This document shows, piece by piece, positions 33,943 through 52,892 of a stretch of DNA of 64,000 bases (within the stretch, counting starts at the first letter, position 1; the number at the start of each line of letters is the position of its first letter). The stretch is from Gammaproteobacteria bacterium UBA2679 (GTDB lineage: Bacteria > Pseudomonadota > Gammaproteobacteria > Pseudomonadales > Oleiphilaceae). The notes beneath the pieces were generated by a model that saw only the letters and a program-made list of their open reading frames with translations, did no database searches and was not told the DNA's origin. The stretch spans positions 336,161 through 400,160 of the forward strand of contig DEMD01000007.1 of assembly GCA_002354735.1 (NCBI GenBank), given 5' to 3'. The translations under genes and the position numbers were made by a program.

Positions 33943-34019
33943 TGGCGCGCTCGGGAGGATTCGAACCTCCGACCGCCTGGTTCGTAGCCAGGTACTCTAT
34001 CCAGCTGAGCTACGAGCGC
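33943..34019 (-). tRNA. tRNA-Arg (anticodon ACG)
   Basis: A 77-base cloverleaf can be drawn by hand: acceptor GCGCTCG/CGAGCGC, D arm GCTC/GAGT, anticodon stem CCTGG/CCAGG with loop CTACGAA (anticodon ACG, read after A-to-I editing by TadA deaminase), T arm GGAGG-TTCGAAT-CCTCC, discriminator G and encoded CCA. Confidence 0.97.
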
Positions 34020-34098
34020 GCATAAAAATTGACTCAGTTCCTTACTAACCACCTGGCTATTCAACCAGGCTCTACAACACCACCAGAACTGACGTCAC

Positions 34099-34190
<92 letters not shown>

Positions 34191-38863: not shown

Positions 38864-40255
38864 TCAACCCTGGCTGGCGGAAAGCTTCTCACCGGTCTCA
38901 CGCATGAAGCTGAGGAAGTCAGCGAAGGCTTCGGGCGCTGGCACCTGAGCTGGGGCATCTGCCCCTTCAGGCGAAGCGGCAGCCGCAGGCAAGGCGATTG
39001 CGCCCTGTTCATAGAGTGCCCTTGCCGATGACTCAGCAAAGTCCAACAGACCGGCGCCATCCGAAAGTGCCTGTGCTGACTCCAGCGCAGCCCGCAGGTT
39101 TTCGATAAAACGGGCCAGAGGGGAGAAATCATTCGCCGGCAAGGCTGACTGCGCGCCTGACTGCCTGCCAGCAGCTGGCGCGCTGGCGCCACTTTCATAC
39201 GCCTGGCTGATCGATGAATACGAGACTGAGGAGAGATTGACGGCAAACGATGCGATCTCACCCATATCCACGTCCAGCGACAGCGCCTTCTCGAAGGCCG
39301 CCTGCATGTCGCCGGCGAAAAAGTCATTGGCTACTGAATCGATCTGCTTGAGAAATCCGCCAATCGCCTCGAGCTCTCCGTCATCGAGTTGGCCTTCTAC
39401 ATCAAGCATAAACTGGTTCCCTGAAATACCCTGCAGCACTTCCTGCATGCTGCCACCATTGGCCTGTATTTCTGCAGAAGCCGCTGCCACCTGGCTCAGC
39501 GACAGACGCACGGTGTCCCCATCCCTGGTTTTGAGCTGAATAACAGAGCTTTCTGCCCGGAGATATTCCGAGCGCGCTGCAACAGTACCGGAAGCAGCTG
39601 GTGACGAAGCGATAGGGGCTGGTGTAGTCACCTCACCTTTGCCGGGCACTCGGCCCGCGATAGTGTCGGCGATCTGCCCGAAACCTTTCTGCACTGCGGA
39701 ATAACCGGCATCGATATCTTTCTCAAGCTGACCGTCATCGCTGGGCAGGAAACCACGGGCTTTCAATTCGTCGCGAGCCTCGGCGTAGCCTTGTTCGACG
39801 CCCGCCCTCGCCTGCTGCAGCATAGCATCAAGACGCTCAGGCGCGGCGCCGTCAGCTTTGGCCAGTGCGATACGTTTTTCCACGAAGCCGAGGATTGTGC
39901 CAGCAACCTTATCGGGCGAAGGGATACCGTCCCCATCAGCGGCCTTGCCATAAGCGCCCGGATTCACGGCGGCACCCATCCGCTGCAGTGACGGCTCGGT
40001 CGCTGAGGCTCCACCCATTGCTCTGTCAACCCGCCGCACGATCAGCTCGGCTGCAAATCCGCCCGGTCTCCGGCCTTCACTCAATGCTGCGTAGCCTTTT
40101 TCCAGCGCTGCCGTCAACTCCTGGCCTGAGCGCGATGAAGCGGCCGCAGGAGGATTGGCAGCACTGCTCTGTCCATTAACTCTCACACTGGGCATCTGCC
40201 GCAGTCCATCGGAGAACAGACGATCATACGACGAGTTGAAGAGCTGGTTGTTCAT
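38864..40255 (-). CDS. DUF5610-like protein under a sigma-28 promoter
   Basis: 463 residues from the start proposed here. Residues ~45-200 are helical and resemble my recollection of DUF5610 (ELTAALEKGYAAL; TILGFVEKRIALAKADGA; EARDELKARGFLPSDDG); residues ~230-300 look like a mixed domain (VIQLKTRDGDTVRLSLSQV) and the rest is helical with Ala-rich linkers. No signal or membrane helix. The frame is open to 40501, overlapping the divergent RDD gene, but a near-perfect FliA promoter at 40323-40349 and an AGGATGG ribosome site 8 bases before the ATG at 40255 show that this ATG is the likely start. Function unknown; regulation implies a role in late flagellar assembly, motility or chemotaxis. Confidence 0.75.
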   Translation of the reverse strand: MNNQLFNSSYDRLFSDGLRQMPSVRVNGQSSAANPPAAASSRSGQELTAALEKGYAALSEGRRPGGFAAELIVRRVDRAMGGASATEPSLQRMGAAVNPGAYGKAADGDGIPSPDKVAGTILGFVEKRIALAKADGAAPERLDAMLQQARAGVEQGYAEARDELKARGFLPSDDGQLEKDIDAGYSAVQKGFGQIADTIAGRVPGKGEVTTPAPIASSPAASGTVAARSEYLRAESSVIQLKTRDGDTVRLSLSQVAAASAEIQANGGSMQEVLQGISGNQFMLDVEGQLDDGELEAIGGFLKQIDSVANDFFAGDMQAAFEKALSLDVDMGEIASFAVNLSSVSYSSISQAYESGASAPAAGRQSGAQSALPANDFSPLARFIENLRAALESAQALSDGAGLLDFAESSARALYEQGAIALPAAAASPEGADAPAQVPAPEAFADFLSFMRETGEKLSASQG

Positions 40256-40322
40256 CTGCCGAGCCATCCTGAGTGATGCGGACAACGGTGTAGCACCGTG
40301 CCGATGATAGGTATTAGTGAAG

Positions 40323-40349
40323 CTATCGGCGGTTCCTCTCAAAACTTTA
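40323..40349 (-). promoter_or_regulatory. Sigma-28 (FliA) promoter of the DUF5610-like gene
   Basis: On the minus strand: -35 TAAAGTTT (40349-40342), 11-base spacer, -10 GCCGATAG (40330-40323). This matches 15 of 16 positions of the enterobacterial FliA consensus TAAAGTTT-N11-GCCGATAA with the exact spacing. It gives a 5' leader of roughly 60 bases to the ATG at 40255. Confidence 0.85.
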
Positions 40350-40469
40350 GCGAATCGCCCCGAAACATTGTTAACATGCTGCAATACGCGATCGGCAGAA
40401 CGGAACAGGCTGACCCAAGGCTGTCTGAGCACTGCTGGCGACACTGACTCAAGGTGAAATTCCTGCATC

Positions 40470-40976
40470 ATGCCCGCACCCATTATTGAAGCGAAGCGCA
40501 AGGCGCCACTCCTGCGTCGTTTCGCGGCGATGTTCTATGACTTTTTGCTCTGCCTGGCCCTGGCCCTTGGTACAACGGCCCTCTACGTAGCCATCAAAGG
40601 CTGGTGGATCGGCTCCCAGGCGCTCGAGGCGCAGGTGGCAGCCGGCACTATCAGCCAGGGTCCGGTGCTCACTATCCTGCTGCTGCTGGTCATCACGTTT
40701 TTTTTCTGTTACTTCTGGACCAGAACCGGTCAGACCCTCGGCATGCAGGCCTGGAAAGTTCAGATTCTTACGCGGGAAGACAAGCTGCCGACCCTTGGTC
40801 AGTCGCTCATTCGTCTTGCTGGTGCAGCGATCTCATTCGCGGCCTTCGGCCTCGGATATTTCTGGATGTTGTTTGACCGGGAGCAACTGACCTGGCACGA
40901 GCGAATTTCCGGGACGCGCACCATTTTCCGTGACTATAAAAAAGAGCAGGCCACAGCCTGGAGGCAAGCCAATTGA
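40470..40976 (+). CDS. RDD-family membrane protein
   Basis: 168 residues with three hydrophobic segments (about 20-45, 65-90, 110-135). The first carries the Arg...Asp pattern of the family ([18 protein letters not shown]) and [16 protein letters not shown] is the second hallmark. RDD proteins are poorly understood; some act as Na+/H+ antiporters. It is divergent from the DUF5610-like gene across 214 bases. Its stop overlaps the TTG start of aotP, so it is in the same transcript as the transporter genes, but a functional link is not evident. Confidence 0.8.
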
Positions 40977-48351: not shown

Positions 48352-49017
48352 ATGGCTTTGGAAAGAGAATTGCTGTTGGGACGAAACGAGCTACAGCATA
48401 TTGCATTGTCCGGCGGTGATGTTCAACTCCGCACGGCTGTGCTGGCGGCGGCCGATGCTGACACGGTTTTCACGCAGCTCATGAACGAGCTCGCGTGGCG
48501 ACAGGATCAGATCATGATTCACGGTCGTGTGCTCAGCATACCAAGGCTGCAGGCCTGGTACGGTGAACCACACTGCATCTATACCTACTCAGGCACGACA
48601 CTGGCACCAAAACCTATGCCGCCTTTATTGCAAGGGCTGGCCTCCCTGAGTGCGAGAATCAGTGGTGCGGCCTTCAACTGCGTGCTTTGCAATCTTTATC
48701 GCGACGGTGAAGACAGCATGGGTTGGCATGCCGACAACGAGCCAGAGCTCGGCCCGGAGCCTGCTATAGCGTCCTGGTCGTTTGGCGCTATTCGACGCTT
48801 TCACATGAAGCCAATTTCACGTGCAGGGCAATCGTCTGAGCTGCTTCCGGCAGACCATCGCATTCGACTGGACCTGCCGCACAACTCACTGCTGATCATG
48901 CGGGGCTCAACTCAGCAGAATTGGCAGCACAGGATATCGAAATCGCGCAGAGTCGACACAGCACGCATCAATCTCACCTTTCGCTATATTGGCGAGGCAG
49001 ATGCAGGCTCTGCGTGA
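48352..49017 (+). CDS. alkB: AlkB-family 2-oxoglutarate/Fe(II) dioxygenase
   Basis: 221 residues. Iron ligands H126-x-D128 (in MGWHADNEPELG) and H193 (NWQHRISK), and the 2-oxoglutarate-binding R205 and R211 in ARINLTFR. This is the alpha-ketoglutarate-dependent dealkylase fold that repairs 1-methyladenine and 3-methylcytosine; the short length fits the ALKBH2/3-like bacterial group. No ada gene is near. Its 3' end overlaps the convergent protease gene by 34 bases. Confidence 0.9.
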   Translation: MALERELLLGRNELQHIALSGGDVQLRTAVLAAADADTVFTQLMNELAWRQDQIMIHGRVLSIPRLQAWYGEPHCIYTYSGTTLAPKPMPPLLQGLASLSARISGAAFNCVLCNLYRDGEDSMGWHADNEPELGPEPAIASWSFGAIRRFHMKPISRAGQSSELLPADHRIRLDLPHNSLLIMRGSTQQNWQHRISKSRRVDTARINLTFRYIGEADAGSA

Positions 49018-51368
49018 GCCTTCTCGATCTCACGCATACGCGCAATTCTGTTTCGCACACGCTCATAGACCTCCTCATAGCCAGGCACCGAAGTATCGCT
49101 CAGCAATAATTCGAGTACATGCTCGACCCGGTCGACGGCGTAGATGTGAAACTTGCCGGCCCTGCAGGCTGCAAGTACTTCATCCGCGAGCATCAGATTT
49201 CGTGCATTCTGCCGCGGAATGATTACACCTTGTGTGCCGGTAAGACCTTGCAGGCGACAAGTGTCGAAGAAGCCTTCGATTTTTTCATTCACACCACCGA
49301 TAGGCTGAGCATCGCCAAACTGGTTCATTGATCCGGTAATAGCGAGATCCTGCCTGACCGGCATGCCCGACATGGCGCTGATGAGCGCACAGAACTCGGC
49401 CATCGAGGCGCTGTCGCCATCGACCTCATGATAGGACTGCTCAAAAGTGAGGCTCGTCGACAGTGGTATCGGCCCGTCCTGGGCGAACAGGGTCGATAGA
49501 TAGGCCTTGAGAATCATCATACCTTTCGAGTGAATGGCCCCAGCGAGCTTCACATCCCGCTCGATATCGACGATGCTGCCATCGCCAAAATATGTGGTGG
49601 CCGTCAGTCGTGACGTCACGCCGAATTCCTGATCGCCAGTGGTCAACACCGAGAGCGCGTTCACCTGCCCAACAGTGGCGCCGCGCGTGCTCAGCATCGT
49701 AGCGCCATCACGGATACCCTCGAACACCTGGTCACGAATGCGTCCTGCACGATACCTCGCATTGCTGAGCGCCTGTTTGACGTCGTCAAGGCCTATGATT
49801 TTGTGTTCCGCCCGTTGCGCACAGTAGTTCGCTTCACGCAGCAAATTGGCCACATCCGCCGCATGCAGGCTCAGTTTGTTCTGATGCGCCGCTTCCCGAG
49901 CACTCTGTTCGATGATCTTCATCACAGCGGCCCGGTCGCAGTTAAGCAGGCCTTTTTCCTTGATCAGCCCCGCGATGAAGCGCGCATACTGAAGTTGTGT
50001 TTCCTCGGTACGATCGATCTCGGTTTCAAAGTCGGCGACCACTTTGAAGAGCTCGATGAAATCTGGATCGTAACGCTGCAGCAACAGGTAGGTGTCCCTA
50101 TCGCCGAACAGAATGATCTTGAGATCCGCAGGTATGGTCTCAGGCTCGAGTGAGATAGTGCCTGAAATCGAAATCTCCTTCTCCAGCGCGTGGATGCCGA
50201 TTTTCCCGGAACGCATCAGGCGCTTCAGTGCTTCCCACACAAAGGGCTGCTCGAGAAGCTTTACCGCGTCGATGAGAAGATAACCACCGTTGGCACGGTG
50301 CACAGAGCCTGGTCTGATCAGCGTAAAGTCAGTAAAGACTGTACCTTTGAAGGTTATGTTTTCGACGGCGCCGAACAGGTTGTGGTAGTTGGGATTGTCT
50401 TCGACAAGTATGGGCACGCTTTCATTCTTGTCGTGGTGAACAAACGCGTTGATCTGATAACGCCTCGGCAGCTTGTTATCCATAGTGGCGGCAGCCAGTG
50501 CATTGGCTTCTTCCGAATCGTCGAGGAAAAGATCGATATTCTTCAGAATGTCCTGCTGAATCGCGTCCAGATGATCCACAACCTCCTTATGCTCGCGGTA
50601 TGTCTGCTTCACACTATCGATGAGATGCTGACTCACGTTGAGCGCGACCTCTTCGTTCAGTTGCTGCTGACGCTCGGCATAATCCTGCTCACGAGAAGCA
50701 AGCTGCCGCAGAGTCTTGCGAAGTCGCTTCTCCAGCTTGACGATCTTGGCCTCAATGGCCAGCTGCTCCTCATCAGACAGCGCTGAGAATACTTCCGCCG
50801 ACATCGGCTCATCGCCATCCGCGGCGACCAGGCGGTAACCACCTGGTGTGGCAATCGTGAGTGAAACACCCTGGCGCCGGGCTGAGCGTCCGATGGTAGA
50901 CAGTGCCTTCTCCTGACGCTGCGCAAGCTCATTCTTGAGCTTCTCTGAACGCTCGAAATACGACTCGTTCTCGAAGGCCTGGGGAATGTTCTTGTAAAGA
51001 CGATTCAGCAGTTGCTCAACATCGCTCTTCAGTTTTTGCCCCATTCCCACAGGCAATCGTAGTACACGCGGTACTCTTGGGTCTTCGAAGCTGTTGACAT
51101 AACACCAGTCACTCAGCTTCCCCGACCCGGGTGAATGTTCGGCGAGGTAGCGTTCGATCATCGTGCGCTTCCCAAGACCACTACTACCGACGGCAAAGAT
51201 GTTATAGCCAGATTCAGCCATGGCAATAGCGAACGAAAGTGCGTCCTTCGCTCTATTCTGGCCAAGTATACCGTTCAGACTTGAAAGAGAGGCCGTGGTT
51301 TTGAAGCGTAGCGACTTTGGATCGCAGGGCTTGTACAGATCAGCTGGATCGAGGGATTTGGTATGCAT
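48984..51368 (-). CDS. Lon-family ATP-dependent protease (AAA_32/LonC-like)
   Basis: 794 residues. N-terminal segment with P-loop-like VGSSGLGKRTMIERY, a long coiled-coil insertion (~190-290), an AAA core and a C-terminal Lon protease domain. The Ser-Lys dyad is S653 in DGDSASMAE and K696 in GVNEKIEGF, with the 43-residue spacing of E. coli Lon. Such putative ATP-dependent Lon-like proteases are common in Gammaproteobacteria; substrates unknown. Start at the ATG 51368 (HTKSLDPADLY) rather than further upstream. Confidence 0.9.
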   Translation of the reverse strand: MHTKSLDPADLYKPCDPKSLRFKTTASLSSLNGILGQNRAKDALSFAIAMAESGYNIFAVGSSGLGKRTMIERYLAEHSPGSGKLSDWCYVNSFEDPRVPRVLRLPVGMGQKLKSDVEQLLNRLYKNIPQAFENESYFERSEKLKNELAQRQEKALSTIGRSARRQGVSLTIATPGGYRLVAADGDEPMSAEVFSALSDEEQLAIEAKIVKLEKRLRKTLRQLASREQDYAERQQQLNEEVALNVSQHLIDSVKQTYREHKEVVDHLDAIQQDILKNIDLFLDDSEEANALAAATMDNKLPRRYQINAFVHHDKNESVPILVEDNPNYHNLFGAVENITFKGTVFTDFTLIRPGSVHRANGGYLLIDAVKLLEQPFVWEALKRLMRSGKIGIHALEKEISISGTISLEPETIPADLKIILFGDRDTYLLLQRYDPDFIELFKVVADFETEIDRTEETQLQYARFIAGLIKEKGLLNCDRAAVMKIIEQSAREAAHQNKLSLHAADVANLLREANYCAQRAEHKIIGLDDVKQALSNARYRAGRIRDQVFEGIRDGATMLSTRGATVGQVNALSVLTTGDQEFGVTSRLTATTYFGDGSIVDIERDVKLAGAIHSKGMMILKAYLSTLFAQDGPIPLSTSLTFEQSYHEVDGDSASMAEFCALISAMSGMPVRQDLAITGSMNQFGDAQPIGGVNEKIEGFFDTCRLQGLTGTQGVIIPRQNARNLMLADEVLAACRAGKFHIYAVDRVEHVLELLLSDTSVPGYEEVYERVRNRIARMREIEKAHAEPASASPI

Positions 51369-51477
51369 AGCTATCAGATGTACCGCCAGAATGAGAGCGT
51401 AGAGGCAGGCTGGGCAGGGGCCTGTTGGATTGAGAGGAAAATAGCAGCCATCAGACGGAGCCACAACCAGGCACCGC

Positions 51478-51504
51478 TAAAGTATTCTGTTTTCCCGCCG
51501 ATAT
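51478..51504 (+). promoter_or_regulatory. Sigma-28 (FliA) promoter of the arginine-rich gene
   Basis: TAAAGTAT (51478-51485), 11-base spacer, GCCGATAT (51497-51504): 14 of 16 matches to TAAAGTTT-N11-GCCGATAA with exact spacing, ~75 bases before the ATG at 51580. It lies in the 211-base gap divergent from the Lon-like gene. Confidence 0.8.
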
Positions 51505-51579
51505 ATGAATTAGAAGACCATCGTCTGTGCTGAACAACAGCAGCGTCTGCATACACATATCAAGCAATGGAGGGTAGCC

Positions 51580-51873
51580 ATGTTTCCAATCGACTCACGT
51601 AACAAGCCCTCTGCGGCACAGGCGCCGACACCAGACGCCTACAGATCGGACCGAATCAAACAGCCACAGGAAGTAATACCTGTCGACACCAATGAGCCTG
51701 CCGAAGAGGAACGCCGCCGGCGACCTGAACGTCGCTTCAATACAAGGCGTTATGAAGGCAAAGAGCGACGGCGAAAGGTTGACCGGCGGCGCCCGGAACT
51801 ACTCGACGCTCGCTATGGTCGTCCTGAGCGGTTGAACGATCGCCGTGGCGCGAAAATTGACGTCACTGTATAA
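51580..51873 (+). CDS. Small arginine-rich protein under a sigma-28 promoter
   Basis: 97 residues, not recognised as a named family. The N-terminal 35 residues are polar and Pro/Ala rich; residues ~44-70 are dense in arginine and glutamate (EERRRRPERRFNTRR; KERRRKVDRRRPELL) and the end is DRRGAKIDVTV. Net charge strongly positive; no signal or membrane segment. A GGAGGG ribosome site lies 5 bases before the ATG. The FliA promoter upstream points to expression with the late flagellar genes, and a PilZ gene follows 100 bases later. It could bind nucleic acid or an acidic partner; no function can be assigned. Confidence 0.75.
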   Translation: MFPIDSRNKPSAAQAPTPDAYRSDRIKQPQEVIPVDTNEPAEEERRRRPERRFNTRRYEGKERRRKVDRRRPELLDARYGRPERLNDRRGAKIDVTV

Positions 51874-51973
51874 ATTGCACGCAGCCAGTCGGGAACCTTC
51901 GCATTCCTTTGTATTTTTTTGTAAACTCCATCCATCTTCAAGGCAGACGCTGGGGCGGCTTCAAACTTACATA

Positions 51974-52396
51974 ATGCACGAATTCAATTTCAGGCAGCAG
52001 CTCGAACGACGCATCAAACGACGTCACGATACAGACGAACTCAGGGTTATTGCTGCTCCGAAAGGGTTTTTCGGATTCACCAAGCAGGCTCGCGAAGTCG
52101 ACTGTTTTGACTTCAATCGTTACGGTATGGCAATAGGATTCCCCGGGAAACTGAAGGTCGGCGATCGTCTCAGCTTTAGCTTCACAGCAAAGTACGTCAA
52201 CGAAAAAGCGATTACTGGCAGAGTTGCGAATGTTGATGGTGAGGCCGTCACGACGCCCGGTGTCACGCGTGTAGGCATTACGTTCGACTGCTGGGCTTCG
52301 GAAAAGAACTATGATCGCGCCGTCGATAACGCTCTTGCGCGAATCGAACGCATCTTTAGTGAAAGTAATCAGCAGACCACCAAGGCTGAAAGCTAG
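51974..52396 (+). CDS. PilZ-domain protein (degenerate c-di-GMP site)
   Basis: 140 residues forming one PilZ domain: the RxxxR element in LERRIKRRHD (residues ~10-18), then DFNRYGMAIGF where the family usually has D/N-x-S-x-x-G (Asn in place of Ser), and the strands ITGRVANVDGEAV and TRVGITFDCW. PilZ domains bind c-di-GMP and control motility and surface behaviour. The substitution leaves binding uncertain. The ATG at 51974 has only a weak ribosome site. It may be read from the sigma-28 promoter 470 bases upstream, which would make it a flagellar-regulon c-di-GMP effector. Confidence 0.75.
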   Translation: MHEFNFRQQLERRIKRRHDTDELRVIAAPKGFFGFTKQAREVDCFDFNRYGMAIGFPGKLKVGDRLSFSFTAKYVNEKAITGRVANVDGEAVTTPGVTRVGITFDCWASEKNYDRAVDNALARIERIFSESNQQTTKAES

Positions 52397-52415: not shown

Positions 52416-52892
52416 CTACTTGGTCGGAGCCCAACGCTTGGCGGCAAGATCGTCACTTTCCTTGGATGCCACCCAACGCTCGCCACGGGTGCCAATCTCC
52501 TTCTTCCAGAACGGCGCCTCGGTCTTGAGTAGATCCATGATGTAAGCACACGCGTCGAATGCCGCTTGGCGATGAGACGAGGCTACAGAGACTATGACCA
52601 CCACCTCACCAAGCTCGATTCTTCCAACACGATGAAGAATTGAAATGGCCAGCAGTGGCCAACGGTCGGCTGCGGTTCCAGCTATCTGACGGAGCGAGCG
52701 CTCCGTCATCCCGGGATAGTGCTCCAGATCGAGGGCCACAACATCACTGCCGTCACCATAATCCCGCACCAGACCTTCGAAGCTGCATATCGCACCGAGA
52801 GAGGCTGAGTCCCGCTTCAAACCCGCCCTGAAGGACGAGCCCGAGGTAGCGCTATCAATGGGTGCAGGACCAACCTCTACGTGGATATGCAC
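52416..52892 (-). CDS. moaE: Molybdopterin synthase catalytic subunit MoaE
   Basis: 158 residues. Family hallmarks: ICSFEGLVRDYGDG, LEHYPGMTERSL, ILHRVGRIELGEVVVIVSV, SSHRQAAFDACAYIMDLLK and the catalytic-lysine region APFWKKEIGTRGERW. With MoaD (not in the window) it inserts sulfur into cyclic pyranopterin monophosphate to make molybdopterin. It lies 11 bases downstream of recA, where recX is found in many relatives, and may be read through from recA. Confidence 0.93.
   Translation of the reverse strand: MHIHVEVGPAPIDSATSGSSFRAGLKRDSASLGAICSFEGLVRDYGDGSDVVALDLEHYPGMTERSLRQIAGTAADRWPLLAISILHRVGRIELGEVVVIVSVASSHRQAAFDACAYIMDLLKTEAPFWKKEIGTRGERWVASKESDDLAAKRWAPTK

Follow-up and report, generated by a model that had tools for sequence, protein, structure and literature searches.

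Promoters recognised by FliA (sigma-28) follow the consensus TAAAGTTT-N11-GCCGATAA, and FlgM, the anti-FliA factor, is a disordered protein that itself belongs to the FliA regulon. The late flagellar regulon is commonly regarded as an almost complete list of parts. In regard to PilZ proteins, FliA control of motility brakes has been established for YcgR of Escherichia coli and FlgZ/PP4397 of Pseudomonas putida (PMC4183435, PMC6093933), and flxA of E. coli is listed as an accessory gene of the FliA regulon (PMC4183435). The locus presented here, from an Allohahella-like bacterium (its small protein shares 98 percent identity with a hypothetical protein from Allohahella sp. A8), resembles the YcgR and FlgZ systems in that a PilZ-fold protein is encoded near a FliA promoter, and the model of this protein finds its fold matches in 2gjg and 5y6f/5y6g. 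However, it consists of a single 140-residue PilZ domain in which DxNRYG stands in place of DxSxxG, and its gene has no separate FliA site and is retained in genomes devoid of FliA. The likeness to flxA is one of setting, since each gene lies outside the flagellar clusters and has a good FliA site; flxA comes from other taxa. The arginine-rich proteins encoded at this locus and at related ones are best read as a hitherto undescribed family of the FliA regulon whose members are disordered and carry [DE]RR repeats, encoded beside a separable PilZ gene. If so, a constrained protein without a known family, tied to FliA in at least two gammaproteobacterial families, would be a missing piece of the parts list.

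The features of the locus are collected in Table 1, where the window is the whole stretch of 64,000 nucleotides that was analysed. The first-pass annotation had placed here a FliA promoter, a small arginine-rich gene of no known family and, 100 bases further (51874-51973), a PilZ gene; if both genes were on one transcript, late flagellar expression would yield a c-di-GMP-type effector together with the small protein. The Lon-like protease gene is the divergent upstream neighbour in 25/25 loci (L006-L030).

Table 1. Features of the locus, in positions of the window
Feature	Position	Strand	Basis or remark
FliA (sigma-28) promoter TAAAGTAT-N11-GCCGATAT	51478..51504	+	14/16 consensus positions, 11-base spacer
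Ribosome-binding site GGAGGG	51569..51574	+	read in sequence
Arginine-rich [DE]RR-repeat protein, 97 residues, predicted disordered	51580..51873	+	relatives, dN/dS, AlphaFold2
Weak candidate PilZ-gene promoter TTCGCA-N18-TAAACT	51898..51927	+	9/11 against block TTTTCA-N16-18-TANACT of relatives
PilZ-fold protein, 140 residues	51974..52396	+	RxxxR kept, DxSxxG replaced by DxNRYG
LonB/LonC-like protease, divergent (context)	48984..51371	-	profile match
moaE (context)	52416..52892	-	profile match

When the FliA consensus was applied with a minimum of 13 of 16 matching positions and an 11-base spacer, the promoter was recovered at exactly the annotated place, on the plus strand. At a tolerance of 3 mismatches, the whole window contains two sites, against a mean of 0.21 in shuffled sequence. 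A single site in one window is by itself suggestive, and the convincing part is its conservation across relatives. In 56 loci (the window and 55 genomes), the top FliA score between the Lon-like and the arginine-rich gene ranges from 11 to 16 and reaches 13-16 in 52, whereas the value is 8-11 in 48 of the 48 examined loci that share the lonB-PilZ neighbourhood and lack the arginine-rich gene, so that the site travels with the gene. The two ranges meet at L092, which holds the gene and scores 11, the top value among the gene-less loci. Shuffled gaps average about 9.2 with the gene and 9.1 without it, with maxima of 14 and 13, respectively, and the observed scores differ with a Mann-Whitney p of about 2e-19 among loci that are related by descent. 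The gene-less set represents 48 loci out of the 72 genomes having PilZ without the arginine-rich gene; loci repeating a genome were excluded from the comparison, and G009 (L011) was kept. At the level of sequence, these comparisons establish both the conservation of the promoter and its linkage to the gene, and in one genome (G159) a 14/16 site even exposed an unrecognised arginine-rich relative that had given no profile match. Two or more sites with at most 3 mismatches do arise in 3 of 100 shuffled windows, as would be expected to happen occasionally if the promoter and the arginine-rich reading frame were chance features, but both are present in 56 loci and both are missing from 48, which, together with the low dN/dS given below, makes the probability of such an origin negligible.

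The best FliA site of the window is a different one, scoring 15/16 at 40323-40349 on the minus strand, inside the early portion of an ORF (38864-40501, minus strand, taken at its longest reading) that belongs to DUF5610 (PF18433, E 3e-24). The site precedes a plausible later start of this ORF, which is likely a second FliA target.

Patterns of gene loss can separate the true target of a promoter from its mere neighbour. FliA was found above cut-off in 151/163 genomes of the Hahella ganghwensis family, including all 55 with the arginine-rich gene, while the gene is present in none of the 12 FliA-less genomes (chance about 0.006), 11 of which also miss flagellin. Common ancestry may account for some of this absence. 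As the gene is found in only 55 of the 151 FliA-positive genomes, it represents an accessory component.

Coding comparisons show the arginine-rich gene to be genuine and under constraint, with a median dN/dS of 0.07 (range 0.01-0.44) over 29 overlapping pairs, all of equal length and moderate divergence. The protein of the window contains 22.7 percent arginine and five [DE]RR blocks, and its relatives have a median of 19-20 percent arginine and a median of four such blocks (range 3-6). The C-terminus follows [IVLF]-[DNSE]-[TIVL]-x-[AV] in 27/27 sequences of alignment A6 and in 25/27 of alignment A4, from which G009 (L011), a copy with a TGA within the matched stretch and no in-frame ATG, was left out. 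AlphaFold2 predicted no fold (mean pLDDT 64.5, pTM 0.21). The absence of a known family, claimed from the start, held up in profile searches: at E up to 1 neither Pfam nor NCBIfam matches the window protein, and its 27 relatives gave isolated weak matches only, the best being 0.032 in Pfam and 0.0069 in NCBIfam, the latter for one member. A search of PHROGs likewise returned isolated weak matches only, no relatives were found in viral contigs, and a plasmid search, done with DNA only, gave no match to the gene. Our literature search, which covered few subscription journals, found no description of the family. A protein of Marinobacter changyiensis (P0009) counts among the relatives. A profile of the 27 relatives recovers the gene in 54/163 genomes of the Hahella ganghwensis family, or in 55 with G159; three of the 54 matches are weak (G156, G157 and G158), and an arginine-rich ORF was then read in each.

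Relatives are also present outside this family. Wider profile searches gave matches in 13/293 genomes of the order and in 6/369 and 4/369 genomes of the class, several of them weak. In a second family, that of G602, 36/57 genomes match, and among the best 20 of the 36 loci a FliA site is found in 20/20, starting 55-61 bases upstream of the start codon. Its score is 14 in six, 13 in seven, 12 in four and 11 in three of these best 20 loci; of the shuffles, 11 percent attain a score of 11 and 0.15 percent a score of 13. The strict C-terminal pattern fits only 3/15 proteins of this family, while a looser form, [IVLF]-[DNSEY]-[TIVLAS]-x-[AV], fits 15/15 (alignment A7). Profile-profile comparison joined the two groups with 85.6 percent probability and an E of 5.6e-6, values to be taken with caution because of the shared arginine bias, and a bridging protein (L162) combines a start like that of the second group with a C-terminus like that of the first, behind a 12/16 FliA site.

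In regard to the downstream gene, the AlphaFold2 model of its product is a beta barrel with a C-terminal helix, the architecture of PilZ domains of solved structure, which bears out its annotation as a PilZ protein. Pfam PilZ (PF07238) does not match the window protein but detects 14/18 members of its family at E up to 0.01 (best 3.5e-6), and a PDB sequence search with the PilZ profile gave no match. PilZ domains that bind c-di-GMP carry the motifs RxxxR and [DN]xSxxG. The former is kept here, with R13 and R17 invariant in 18/18 family members, while the latter is altered to DxNRYG, also in 18/18, and the protein is therefore not classed as a c-di-GMP receptor. Alignment A5 leaves out the fragment P0007, as well as L010, L011, L014, L016, L021 and L028.

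A single FliA transcript for both proteins, which would jointly tune motility in response to c-di-GMP, would be favoured by their proximity. In the loci seen, the genes are adjacent and share one strand, 48/55 genomes with the arginine-rich gene also have the PilZ gene, and the association over 163 genomes has a p of about 0.005, uncorrected for descent. However, the pair is readily separated: seven genomes hold the arginine-rich gene without PilZ and 72 of the 163 hold PilZ without the arginine-rich gene, when a strong PilZ orthologue is defined by E below 1e-38 and six genomes with weaker matches are counted as lacking it. Of the 12 FliA-less genomes, which all lack the arginine-rich gene, nine keep PilZ, and PilZ stays in 48/48 of the examined loci without the FliA site. 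The altered c-di-GMP motif further speaks against such joint action.

In addition, the PilZ gene has its own promoter-like block in part of the family. The block TTTTCA-N17-TANACT, matched at 10 or 11 of 11 positions, precedes PilZ in 26/49 loci with and in 37/48 loci without the arginine-rich gene, and shuffles reach even 9/11 in only 7 and 11 percent, respectively; since the block was derived from these same loci before counting, the counts describe its recurrence and are not an independent test. It is absent from Hahella-like loci, where a different sigma-70-like block recurs before PilZ by eye (L012-L015 and L018). A general sigma-70 score before PilZ is slightly above that of shuffles (8.22 vs 7.79 and 7.92 vs 7.59), while scans with the sigma-70 consensus in the window and two Hahella loci gave promoter counts no higher than shuffles and did not call the candidate of Table 1, whose 9/11 is equalled by 7 percent of shuffles. 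The loss pattern and, in part of the family, the sequence accordingly give good support to separate control of PilZ, and the PilZ protein is probably mainly under such control, while a promoter within the window itself is a weak candidate. No terminator was called between the two genes in the window; a terminator-like hairpin follows the arginine-rich gene in one Hahella locus, where the count of such structures is not above shuffles. As no terminator was called and the block of the window matches at only 9/11, read-through from the arginine-rich gene into PilZ may occur in the window. The annotated pair is hence frequent and separable, its PilZ member seems to have a promoter of its own in some relatives, and we consider the single transcript unlikely.

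Another PilZ gene adjoins the arginine-rich relative in the second family, in 11/20 loci (L140-L149 and L159) among the best 20 of 36, which could be taken in favour of a joint role, but it lies there on the opposite strand, convergent to its neighbour. The one copy tested matches PF07238 at 2e-12, and a BLAST comparison of this PilZ with the first PilZ family gave no significant match (best E 0.64). The two PilZ neighbourhoods could be due to chance or could mark a shared role. Since in two bacterial families two dissimilar PilZ genes adjoin the arginine-rich gene, on the same strand in one and convergently in the other, it can be speculated that a gammaproteobacterial FliA-driven [DE]RR-repeat family links the finished flagellum to PilZ proteins, with the partnership rather than the operon being conserved, although we regard this as rather improbable. 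In L150, L153 and L154 of the second family, without the convergent PilZ, an RNase J-like gene was seen by eye instead.

On balance, we lean towards the reading in which the FliA promoter serves the arginine-rich gene, whose late flagellar product would act as a disordered cationic binder tuning motility, with the PilZ gene as a frequent, separable neighbour mainly under its own control. The FliA promoter would drive the gene as part of the late flagellar regulon. The timing of FliA-dependent synthesis after completion of the hook is established FliA/FlgM biology, and because of it the protein would be made at that stage. This cationic short-motif protein, mostly disordered and carrying about four [DE]RR blocks along with a constrained C-terminus, would most likely bind an acidic partner in the assembled flagellar or chemotaxis apparatus, and its effect would presumably be the tuning of motility rather than the building of the flagellum. 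A binding role is the most likely one in view of its composition and conservation.

The same composition could also be expected of a protein that binds RNA or DNA and in this way regulates late flagellar or biofilm genes, and the missing predicted fold would be compatible with it. However, a D or E regularly stands in front of the arginine pairs, which in our judgement seems unusual for a plain nucleic acid binder, and no neighbouring gene points in that direction, making this function distinctly improbable.

It is also conceivable that the protein is exported via the flagellar apparatus, with its first residues as the export signal, or that it is a regulator similar to FlgM, with which it shares small size, predicted disorder and candidate membership in the FliA regulon. 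Short N-terminal patterns are conserved (MDIxR, MINIDSRNKP and MVNIxNVG), and look-alike starts exist in some genomes. Yet residues 2-14 resemble FlgM of the same genome no more than they do in shuffled pairings (p 0.18 across 27 genomes and 0.16 by clade), no FlgM (PF04316) row was present among the Pfam matches of the 27 relatives at E up to 1, and a separate FlgM was found in 29/30 genomes searched. Compared with the favoured motility-tuning binder, export or FlgM-like action appears quite remote.

Several loci depart from the common arrangement. The distance from the FliA site to the arginine-rich start is about 360 bases (L001, 9642-10000) and 270 bases (L002, 9727-10000) in two Hahella genomes, and these long leaders contain blocks that are alike by eye and gave no Rfam match; the Rfam search returned nothing above the gathering score in the two Hahella loci and one chance-level snoRNA row in the stretch from the window. 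L036 and L038 have the family layout and no FliA site, the best scores being 10 outside the gene and, for L036, 12 inside it. Outside the Hahella family, three close relatives (G382, G344 and G420), whose genome completeness is unstated, hold the arginine-rich gene and flagellin and no FliA above cut-off; G382 and G344 have no FliA site before the gene, and the copy of G420 is cut by the contig end. A rewiring of the regulon is a possible origin of this pattern. The MAG G213, likewise outside the family, presents the opposite case, a 14/16 site and no FliA above cut-off. L042, L043, L136-L139 and L161 were dropped as members for having no FliA site of 13 or more; L042, L137 and L138 of these carry ERR/DRR blocks without the C-terminus of the family. 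Elsewhere in the window, genes for tRNA-Arg (acg) and tRNA-Ser (gct) lie side by side (33943-34190, minus strand). Finally, the relatives in G248 and G300, to which weak matches outside the Hahella family had led, have FliA sites scoring 16 and 15, and their gene neighbours, read by eye, are cysG-like and glutathione-reductase-like.
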